Origin: Streptomyces sp. NBC_01237
GTDB lineage: Bacteria > Actinomycetota > Actinomycetes > Streptomycetales > Streptomycetaceae
Length of the DNA: 64,000 nucleotides
NCBI RefSeq assembly: GCF_035917275.1
Contig: NZ_CP108508.1
Span: forward strand, 7,068,001 to 7,132,000
Direction: 5' to 3'
Shown here piece after piece: positions 49,780 through 52,251 of this stretch. Below the pieces are notes generated by a model. It saw only the letters and a list, made by a program, of their open reading frames with translations, was not told where the DNA came from and ran no database searches. The number at the start of each line of letters is the position of its first letter. Position 1 is the first letter of the stretch. The translations under genes were made by a program, and so were the position numbers.

Positions 49780-50853
49780 TCAGGAGCTGCTGCCGCAGCT
49801 GGAGCCGCCCGAGCTGCCGCCACAACTCGATCCGCCGCTGCTGCCGCCGCAGCTGGACCCTGAACTGCAACTGGACCCGGACCCGGAACCACAGCTCGTA
49901 CCCGAACTGCAGCCTCCACCTCCACCTCCGCCACCGCCGCTGTGCCCGCCGCCCCCGGTCGAGCCCCCGCAGCTCGCACCGCCGGGGCTCGCACCGGCAC
50001 ACCACACCGTCGCGGCGAGGACGTCCGACGTACCGGAGGAGTGGGACGGGGCACCGGCACCGGAAGCCGTACGGAACGACGCCGACCGACGGTTCCCGCT
50101 GCGGAACCGTGCCGCGGCCAGCAACTGCCCCTGGAGCACGGGATCGGGCAGCGCGCCCAGTCCCATCGTGGCCACCAGATGGGCCGGGCTCATCACATAG
50201 GCGTGGGCGGACCGGTAGGCGTGCACGGCCCGCAGCCCCTCCTTCGTGATCCGGCTACGGGCGGTCAACGTGACGAGCAGGCCGAGCACGCCGCCGATCA
50301 GCATCGCGGGCAGCATCGTGACGAAGAACGGGACCGGATAGTCCGCGTAGCCGTCGTGCACCGCGTACTGGACGAACGTGAGTATCAGGGAGACCGGCAC
50401 GGCCACGAGGCAGCTCAGCCCCTGGATCAGCCCCCAGCGGCGGCGCGGCCGGGTCTCTTCGGGGGAGACCAGCAGACCGCGGGCGGCGAGCCCGTCCCCG
50501 ACCTCCTGCACCGCCGGATGCCGCATCACCGCGTCCCGCAGCGTGTGCAGCGCCCCGTTCGGTGCGTCGGCCAGCGTGGAGAGCACGGCCCGCTCGACCG
50601 GGTCACGGGCCTCCGGCCGCTGTACGGCGACGATGCCGGGGCCGCCGATGATCAGGCGTCCGTCGGTGTACAGGGCGGTCAGCGCGGTGTCCACCACTCG
50701 GGCCGGGCCGCCGTTCAGGAAGGCCGCCTCGTACAGGTCGTGAACGAAGACGTCCGTGGGCCGCCTCCGGCCGCGGTCACGCCGTGTCCTCGTCAGCAGC
50801 AGCACCGAGGAGACGGCCACCGCGAGGGACAGCAGCAGAGCCAACACGTTCAT
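49780..50853 (-). CDS. TIGR04222-type membrane protein with eight-Cys Gly/Ser tail (candidate MNIO substrate)
   Basis: A 357-residue protein. It has an N-terminal membrane segment (2-20), the conserved block VHDLYEAAFLNGGPARVVDTAL, and two membrane segments (about 142-165 and 175-197). From residue ~280 the chain is almost only Gly, Ser and Cys. Cysteines are at 285, 295, 315, 321, 329, 335, 344 and 353, the last three in a nine-residue period of the type SSCGGSSGG. It lies 6 bp after the DUF692 gene and is translationally coupled to it. DUF692 enzymes modify Cys residues of precursor peptides, so the tail is the obvious substrate; this is inference. Metal binding or crosslinking at the membrane is possible. 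Confidence 0.87.
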   Translation of the reverse strand: MNVLALLLSLAVAVSSVLLLTRTRRDRGRRRPTDVFVHDLYEAAFLNGGPARVVDTALTALYTDGRLIIGGPGIVAVQRPEARDPVERAVLSTLADAPNGALHTLRDAVMRHPAVQEVGDGLAARGLLVSPEETRPRRRWGLIQGLSCLVAVPVSLILTFVQYAVHDGYADYPVPFFVTMLPAMLIGGVLGLLVTLTARSRITKEGLRAVHAYRSAHAYVMSPAHLVATMGLGALPDPVLQGQLLAAARFRSGNRRSASFRTASGAGAPSHSSGTSDVLAATVWCAGASPGGASCGGSTGGGGHSGGGGGGGGGCSSGTSCGSGSGSSCSSGSSCGGSSGGSSCGGSSGGSSCGSSS

Positions 50854-50859
50854 GACGGA

Positions 50860-52251
50860 TCACTTCCCCACGAGGACGGCACGGGCCGCCCGGACCAGAC
50901 GGGTGGTACGGCGCGGCGGGCGGGGGGCCGCCCGGTCCTGCCACCAGTGGGTCAGCCGCCGCCTGGCCGCCGCGTCCGCCGGCCGGCCCGCGATCAGCAG
51001 CTGCTCCGCGAAGTCGAGCGCGTCACGCCGGTATCCGGCGGACATGGGCCGGGTCATGGCGTACGCGAGGTAGGTGTCCCGGTAGTCGGCGCCGAGGATC
51101 TCCGGCAGCTCCGGCGCGACCTTGGCGACCACCCCCGCCCGCTTGGCGGCCAGCGCCCGGCTCTGCACGCCCAGGCGCCGTTGGTCGAAGCCCTCGGGTG
51201 CGGGAGTGCCCGCGACGAGCGCCGAGAGCAGCGCGGTCTGGGCGAGGGCGGCGCGTTCCCGGACCGCAGGGGCGCAGCCGGTCCGCACCGGCCGGGGGGC
51301 CGACGGGACGTCCGGGTCCTTCGGGGCAGCAGATCCGCCCACGGCCGTCGCCGTCCTCGGCGCCACCGTGTACGGGGCGTCCGCTGCCTTTGGCGCCGCT
51401 GTGTCCCTCGGGGACGCCGTGGCTGTCGCGGCTGCCGCCTTCAGGGTGGCGCGGATCGTGGTCAGTTCGTCCGCCAGCTCCTTCGCGGGCGGGAAGTCGT
51501 CGTCTCGCTCCAGCAGCGCACCGGGCGGGTCGACCCGTGAGCGCAGCTCGGTCAGCACGTCCAGGACGGGCCGTGTCACGGGGTGGGCGTGCGTGTCGTG
51601 CCAGACGCCGTCCTTCTCGACGCCGCCCGCCACATGTACGTACGCGATGGCCTCCACCGGCAGCTCGTCGAGCGCCTTCGCGGGGTCCTCGCCGCGGTTG
51701 ACGTGGTTGGTGTGCAGATTGGCCACATCGATCAGCAGCCGCACCCCGGTGCGCTCGACCAGCTCCGCCAGGAACTGCCCCTCCGTCAGTTCCTCGCCCG
51801 GCCAGGAGATCAGCGCCGCGATGTTCTCCAGGGCCAGCGGCACGGGCAGCGAGTCCTGGGCGATCCGCACGTTCTCGCACAGCACCTCCAGCGCGTCCCA
51901 GGTCCGCGGCACCGGCAGCAGATGGCCCGCCTCCAGCCTCGGCGACGCGGTGAGCGGCCCCCCGGCCCGAACGAACGCGATGTGCTCCGTCACCAGCGGC
52001 GTACCGAGCAGTTCCGCCCGCGCGGCCAGGTCCGCGAGCCGCCCCGCGTCCGGGCGGTCGGCGCCGCCCAGGCCCAGGGAGACGCCGTGCGGCACGACGG
52101 TGACGCCGCGCTCGCGGAGCCGTACCAGGGAGTCGGGCAGATGGTCGGCGCAGAGGTTCTCCGCCACCGCCTCGACCCAGTCGATGCCCGGCAGCGCCTC
52201 CACGGCGTCGGCGATCTCGGGCCGCCAGCCGATACCGATTCCCAGCCTCAT
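50860..52251 (-). CDS. DUF692 (MNIO) enzyme fused to an HvfC/DUF2063-like domain
   Basis: A 463-residue protein. Residues 1-270 are a DUF692 TIM barrel, the multinuclear non-heme iron oxidative enzymes that rework Cys and other residues of ribosomal peptides. Candidate metal ligands are H55 (VVPHGVSLG), H90 (VTEHIAF), E142 (LALENIAAL), D175 and H180 (LLIDVANLHTNH), H206 (YVHVAGG), D219 and H221 (WHDTHAH) and E248 (LLERDDDF). After an Ala/Pro linker (~270-325), residues ~330-425 (LLSALVAGTPAP, QSRALAAKRAGVV, LGADYRDTYLAYA) resemble the DUF2063 partner proteins that are usually separate. ATG 52251 has AAGGGGGA 5 nt upstream. The Cys-tailed membrane protein follows 6 bp later. Confidence 0.9.
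   Translation of the reverse strand: MRLGIGIGWRPEIADAVEALPGIDWVEAVAENLCADHLPDSLVRLRERGVTVVPHGVSLGLGGADRPDAGRLADLAARAELLGTPLVTEHIAFVRAGGPLTASPRLEAGHLLPVPRTWDALEVLCENVRIAQDSLPVPLALENIAALISWPGEELTEGQFLAELVERTGVRLLIDVANLHTNHVNRGEDPAKALDELPVEAIAYVHVAGGVEKDGVWHDTHAHPVTRPVLDVLTELRSRVDPPGALLERDDDFPPAKELADELTTIRATLKAAAATATASPRDTAAPKAADAPYTVAPRTATAVGGSAAPKDPDVPSAPRPVRTGCAPAVRERAALAQTALLSALVAGTPAPEGFDQRRLGVQSRALAAKRAGVVAKVAPELPEILGADYRDTYLAYAMTRPMSAGYRRDALDFAEQLLIAGRPADAAARRRLTHWWQDRAAPRPPRRTTRLVRAARAVLVGK

Follow-up and report, generated by a model that had tools for sequence, protein, structure and literature searches.

The MNIO (DUF692) family comprises iron enzymes that rewire cysteines. Among the described systems, the closest to the one reported here are the clusters of Antoine et al. 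2025 (PMC12452194), in which MNIOs are linked to TIGR04222 membrane proteins whose Cys tails are the proposed substrate, in the gene order Pth2-like, MNIO, TIGR04222 ('adjamnio-II - MNIO - TIGR04222'). According to the passages of that paper drawn on here, DUF2063 genes are not found in MNIO-TIGR04222 clusters, PME-type 2 partners are predicted in at least 10% of clusters while many appear without a partner gene, and the tail is predicted to be periplasmic. We describe a locus from Streptomyces sp. NBC_01237, contig NZ_CP108508.1, lying in a stretch of 64,000 nucleotides (positions 7,068,001 to 7,132,000, hereafter the window), which has the same gene order and the same Cys/Gly/Ser tail as proposed substrate. 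In contrast to those passages, the partner is fused to the enzyme and the tail is predicted to be cytoplasmic. The association of the MNIO with TIGR04222 is already published, as is the Cys tail (PMC12452194); new here are the fused partner, the predicted cytoplasmic tail and a distant GPP34 likeness of the membrane protein. Wherever PMC12452194 mentions fusion (10 places), a fusion of MNIO and partner is not described, and its passages mention neither the GPP34 likeness nor the single-helix tail carriers reported below.

Other MNIO systems share some of these traits. Bufferins and captophorins (BufB/HvfB, PMC13097082) likewise combine a Cys-rich MNIO substrate with a partner but, unlike here, are described there as Sec-exported precursors with separate DUF2063-RRE partners; captophorins contain 5-thiooxazoles and are linked to copper. 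ChrH-like MNIOs are reported (PMC12636315) to recognise motifs at the C-terminus of proteins whose N-termini vary, and to give lipidated products. As proposed for this locus, the modification is C-terminal, on membrane-anchored (there lipidated) proteins with varied N-termini and of more than 30 kDa; ChrH-like enzymes however form a different MNIO subfamily and act at a conserved C-terminal motif, whereas here the Cys tail is repetitive. Hence a portable C-terminal target and a membrane anchor are both precedented (PMC12636315). MovX, from Vibrio methanobactin-like clusters, joins an MNIO to a winged helix-turn-helix that might act as partner, according to PMC12452194; both are MNIOs with an extra domain in a possible partner role, but the domain here consists of helices, and homologues of it are encoded separately next to other MNIOs.

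The module described below is real and widespread. With moderate confidence, we read it as a self-partnered MNIO acting on the Cys tail of the adjacent TIGR04222 protein, which would give a metal-binding or redox-active brush at the cytoplasmic face of the membrane.

The MNIO barrel and its fused partner domain

The enzyme gene and that of the membrane protein, here called M, occupy 49780..52251 with a gap of 6 bp (50854-50859), as the preliminary description of this DNA had stated. Their features are as follows.

50860..52251, minus strand: MNIO (DUF692) enzyme with fused C-terminal partner domain, 463 residues
51442..52242, minus strand: MNIO catalytic barrel, residues 4-270 (PF05114, 258.9 bits)
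51268..51438, minus strand: Ala/Pro/Thr-rich linker, residues 272-328 (composition)
50863..51267, minus strand: fused partner domain, PME-type 2-like, about residues 329-463 (AF2, VIA, hhalign, MNIO adjacency)
49780..50853, minus strand: TIGR04222 membrane protein M with Cys/Gly/Ser tail, 357 residues, likely substrate (171.9 bits)
50257..50850, minus strand: three predicted membrane helices of M, residues 2-28, 131-165 and 176-199 (AF2, hydropathy)
within 50257..50850, minus strand: soluble GPP34-like part of M between helices 1 and 2 (GPP34 profile match)
49783..50007, minus strand: disordered tail of M, residues 283-357, with 8 Cys (AF2, hydropathy)

With a PF05114 cut-off of 25 bits, the enzyme belongs to the MNIO family. 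The candidate metal ligands of the barrel (H55, H90, E142, D175, H206, D219, H221 and E248) are identical in 66/66 aligned MNIO domains, as is N178, and E142 to E248 fall within the part that can be aligned to the DUF692 chain in the structure of TglHI (8hci_D). The DUF692 barrel with a full ligand set, noted earlier from the letters alone, is borne out. The proposal that a single chain unites enzyme and partner is also supported; in relatives this partner domain is a separate gene.

Across 296 genomes of the class, a profile search located PF05114 in 66 genomes, with 77 matches. The neighbourhoods of 69 of the 77 matches were taken, and the tree holds the MNIO domains of 65 of these 69 plus that of the window; in the four neighbourhoods outside the tree the MNIO match was absent, too weak or too short. 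A first partner model, built from the last 142 residues of the enzyme, divides the 66 rows into 30 with a fused partner, 25 with a separate gene and 11 with none by this model. The domain is fused in most loci of the same genus, Streptomyces, and lies just downstream of the MNIO as a separate gene in many others; within a clade of 59 rows, 23/25 same-genus rows are fused compared to 7/17 rows of the family f63. The fused label changes at least 7 times on the tree, the starred branches forcing 5 changes, so that fusion or splitting has occurred repeatedly. A wider partner model found 62 places in 60/296 genomes, with no more than 13 first-look candidates scored in each genome. All 62 begin 1,341 bp or less from an MNIO match, a count to be read with the fact that the model was itself derived from MNIO neighbours. 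Conversely, a partner neighbour accompanies 62 of the 75 MNIO places considered (75 out of 77 rows, with the three fragments of G335:C116 counted once).

The AlphaFold2 (AF2) model of residues 326-463, with a predicted local distance difference test score (pLDDT) of 91.7, displays six helices and no strands. No C-terminal RRE, the strand-containing winged helix that is a trait of PME-type 1 partners, is present in these modelled residues. The preliminary description had seen in the domain a resemblance to DUF2063/HvfC partners. Direct HvfC membership is ruled out by the Pfam model of DUF2063 (PF09836), which does not match the window domain and reaches only 1/44 alignment members, at E 0.043. 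Compared profile against profile with two genuine DUF2063 proteins, the domain gave E 8e-4 (90 columns) and 3e-4 (88 columns). In the structural comparison by VIA, the three best rows are chains taken as the partners TglI and MbnC, as moderate matches. Like PME-type 2 partners, the domain lacks the DUF2063 signature, has a predicted fold related to NGO1945/TglI and is encoded with an MNIO, at 62/62 places found; this helical fold and the MNIO adjacency are common to PME-type 2 partners, TglI and MbnC, from which the domain differs by its fusion to the enzyme and by the lack of RRE strands in the model. We conclude that it is a fused MNIO partner of PME-type 2-like kind and not a DUF2063/HvfC member. 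PF26136, annotated on 120 relatives listed with its position in the protein not given, probably covers this domain, which would then be already catalogued.

Two results speak against the partner assignment and could indicate an unrelated helical domain, for example one that binds membrane or DNA: the hhalign probabilities against DUF2063 are 24% and 41%, and Foldseek with the domain returned nothing significant (best E 2.1). The faint DUF2063 sequence match (1/44) points the same way. Such an unrelated domain is nevertheless very unlikely given the MNIO adjacency of every copy found, the identity of the best VIA rows and an hhalign score that exceeds those of all 60 shuffles. A sequence search of the PDB gave chance matches only; since genuine DUF2063 proteins also obtained nothing else, this search is powerless here.

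The fused arrangement, which is found in most Streptomyces examined, would simplify reconstitution as the enzyme is a single chain.

The Cys tail as candidate substrate

M and a second TIGR04222 protein of the window, M2, are both members of NCBIfam TIGR04222 (171.9 and 154.2 bits, cut-off 43), and the first helix of M is judged to be a membrane helix by hydropathy. The last 75 residues of M do hold eight Cys, as first noted. The window holds 513 open reading frames (ORFs) that span 60 codons or more; M alone combines 3 or more Cys with a Gly/Ser/Cys share of 60% or higher in its last 45 residues, and the same test flagged 1/854 ORFs in 30 unrelated loci.

The preliminary description had proposed the tail as substrate and a survey of DUF692-TIGR04222 neighbourhoods as a check. 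With at most 9 first-look candidates scored per genome, TIGR04222 was found in 100/296 genomes of the class, 74 of them above cut-off, and above cut-off in 6/149 in a draw over the phylum. Of the 97 places, second pieces of split matches being excluded, 94 were read (one had no stop in the DNA taken and 2 were unfetched). A Cys tail, defined over the last 40 residues by a minimum of 3 Cys and of 60% Gly/Ser/Cys, is carried by 35/54 of those within 6 kb of an MNIO vs 5/40 elsewhere (p 2.6e-7). Furthermore, MNIO plus partner is present in 37/38 genomes with a Cys-tailed protein vs 14/33 with TIGR04222 but no tail (p 1.4e-7); both p values are too small, given that related species are not independent. 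In the single exception (G217) the Cys-tailed gene lies near a contig end. In the 40 Cys-tailed proteins the Cys are mostly flanked by Gly or Ser. On the tree, 41/59 rows of the MNIO clade have a Cys tail at the locus compared to 0/7 other MNIOs, a comparison group of seven rows, and two of the labels (L091 and L060) may contain frame errors. This co-occurrence supports the Cys tail as a putative substrate of the enzyme.

Several observations weigh against this part of our reading. The Cys tail is missing at the locus in 18/59 rows of the MNIO clade, 14 of which form one Streptomyces clade (support 100/96) that keeps the fused enzyme; the remaining ones are four single rows. In the tail-less clade, a DUF4142 protein (Pfam) with a Pro-rich end replaces the Cys-tailed protein beside the fused MNIO at L073:2192-2986, and a DUF4142-type gene likewise takes its place in L075 and L084. 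No TIGR04222 was found in two genomes of this clade (G023 and G249), with 9 first-look candidates scored in each. The enzyme ligands are intact throughout the clade, so that another substrate may be used there or the tail may be no substrate. M2 and the Pth2-like protein are further candidates at the locus itself.

48928..49701, minus strand: M2, second TIGR04222 protein, tail-less (154.2 bits)
52434..53174, minus strand: Pth2-like protein, the published 'adjamnio-II' neighbour (PTH2, 36.9 bits)

In the 15 listed same-genus orthologues of M2 (one more, G430, was left out by a filter), the equivalents of Cys 18 and Cys 22, in the first predicted membrane helix, are kept in 15/15 and 14/15 respectively, and most have a Cys near 190, in the third predicted helix. 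This conservation makes M2 another substrate candidate, and the conserved Cys could possibly form a metal or redox site in the membrane. If the tail is not the substrate, the MNIO might modify M2, the Pth2-like protein or an unlinked protein, and the unmodified tail would bind metal or crosslink. Persistence of the fused enzyme in the tail-less clade and the Cys of M2 are in favour of this explanation, which we judge improbable in view of the strong co-occurrence of the tail with the MNIO clade on more than one type of carrier and of an absence limited to one Streptomyces clade and four single rows.

TIGR04222 distantly resembles GPP34 (GOLPH3) and DUF2207_C. M itself is not above the gathering score of GPP34 (PF05719), which listed 3/78 members with a best E of 0.0028; in two of these three members the scores are 15.1 and 18.2 bits for a cut-off of 29.1. 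The profile comparison used 20 automatically picked GPP34 rows, some perhaps in a wrong frame, in VIA the GPP34 rows stand among other helical proteins, including stator and coiled-coil ones, and Foldseek alone gave nothing significant. The GPP34 likeness is hence a lead only. DUF2282, the bufferin domain, is not matched in M by Pfam. A third TIGR04222 protein in the same genome (L143, C1:6295435-6296037) lies far from the MNIO and has a short end stretch with 2 Cys.

Membrane side of the tail and the predicted product

The side of the membrane on which the tail lies was predicted by charge bias, which places the C-terminus inside in 22/22 Cys-tailed, 20/20 tail-less and 119/119 close-homologue three-helix proteins that could be scored (from 37, 32 and 120 proteins respectively). 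The tail of M therefore probably faces the cytoplasm as far as charge distribution can tell, and the surface-bound product envisaged at first is not supported. With the tail on the same side as the enzyme, an export step would be unneeded.

Three points are unfavourable to this topology: 15/37 Cys-tailed proteins were unscorable, 7/37 show four hydrophobic stretches, the extra one following the third helix in 6, and the tail is predicted periplasmic in PMC12452194. If the extra stretch of these 6 proteins were a membrane helix, it would flip the tail outwards, where, modified before or during export, it would act as a surface thiol or metal-binding brush. Such an outside tail appears unlikely, because every scored three-helix protein has its C-terminus inside, the single-helix carriers described below give the same result in 6/6, and the matching stretch in the AF2 model of M is only an 8-residue helix.

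In our preferred reading of a self-partnered enzyme acting on an inner-face tail, a flexible linker would join the iron barrel to the helical partner domain, which would bind to the barrel and assist in presenting the substrate. The enzyme would act on the Cys/Gly/Ser tail with which the neighbouring membrane-anchored TIGR04222 protein ends, most likely converting Cys into Cys-derived heterocycles of the thiooxazole type. The result would be a membrane-tethered brush on the inner face that binds copper or another metal, or is redox-active; by analogy with captophorins as described in PMC13097082, it may serve as a membrane-tethered metal buffer. A cytoplasmic tail would extend the range of MNIO products to a thiol or metal polymer that is not secreted and stays permanently attached to the membrane. 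The fusion, the relation of the domain to separate MNIO neighbours, the tail and its co-occurrence are shown by computation; the partner fold and the cytoplasmic side are predictions, and tail modification, its chemistry and a role in metal handling are inferences.

The tail is not restricted to TIGR04222 proteins. In six loci (L082, L086, L095, L097, L098 and L100) it is found on a protein of 83-119 residues with one membrane helix, encoded after the partner in L100 and between MNIO and partner in the other five. It is possible, though we advance it tentatively and with less than even confidence, that the tail is a portable, cytoplasm-facing tag on varied carriers, whether three-helix proteins with GPP34 likeness or proteins with one membrane helix, and that the self-partnered MNIO makes of it a never-exported metal buffer of the inner leaflet, a tethered counterpart of bufferins set in housekeeping neighbourhoods and not in secondary-metabolite clusters.

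Two further arrangements were observed. L095, L097 and L098, with a single-helix Cys-tail protein, an MNIO and a separate partner gene, represent a minimal version of the module. At L091:4948-6306, where frame errors are possible, a Cys/Gly tail is carried beside a fused MNIO by a protein with no membrane helix or Pfam match; a soluble carrier, seen at this one locus, is a lead.

Neighbouring genes

The Pth2-like gene lies 182 bp upstream of the enzyme gene, and the closest named relatives are from Streptomyces, with 95% and 91% identity. SCO6045, present in one redox RNA-seq table, may be this enzyme, to go by a Pfam name. Conserved neighbours were searched by clustering of proteins across loci. 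Among the clusters listed, only the MNIO with its partner, and its shadow frame, spanned families; as the clustering was so coarse that even the TIGR04222 proteins stayed apart, this search excludes little. No metal signal was seen among the identified neighbours of the module. Clusters confined to one family comprise Pth2-like, M2, hemQ-type and deacetylase-type genes in the same genus, and pheS, pheT, argC-type and argJ in f63. In the window, two genes at 46383-48676 (plus strand) converge on the module, one for a flavoprotein of amine-oxidase type and one for a member of the chlorite-dismutase family, probably HemY and HemQ. HemQ-like genes are found near it in 13 same-genus loci, perhaps as plain synteny.
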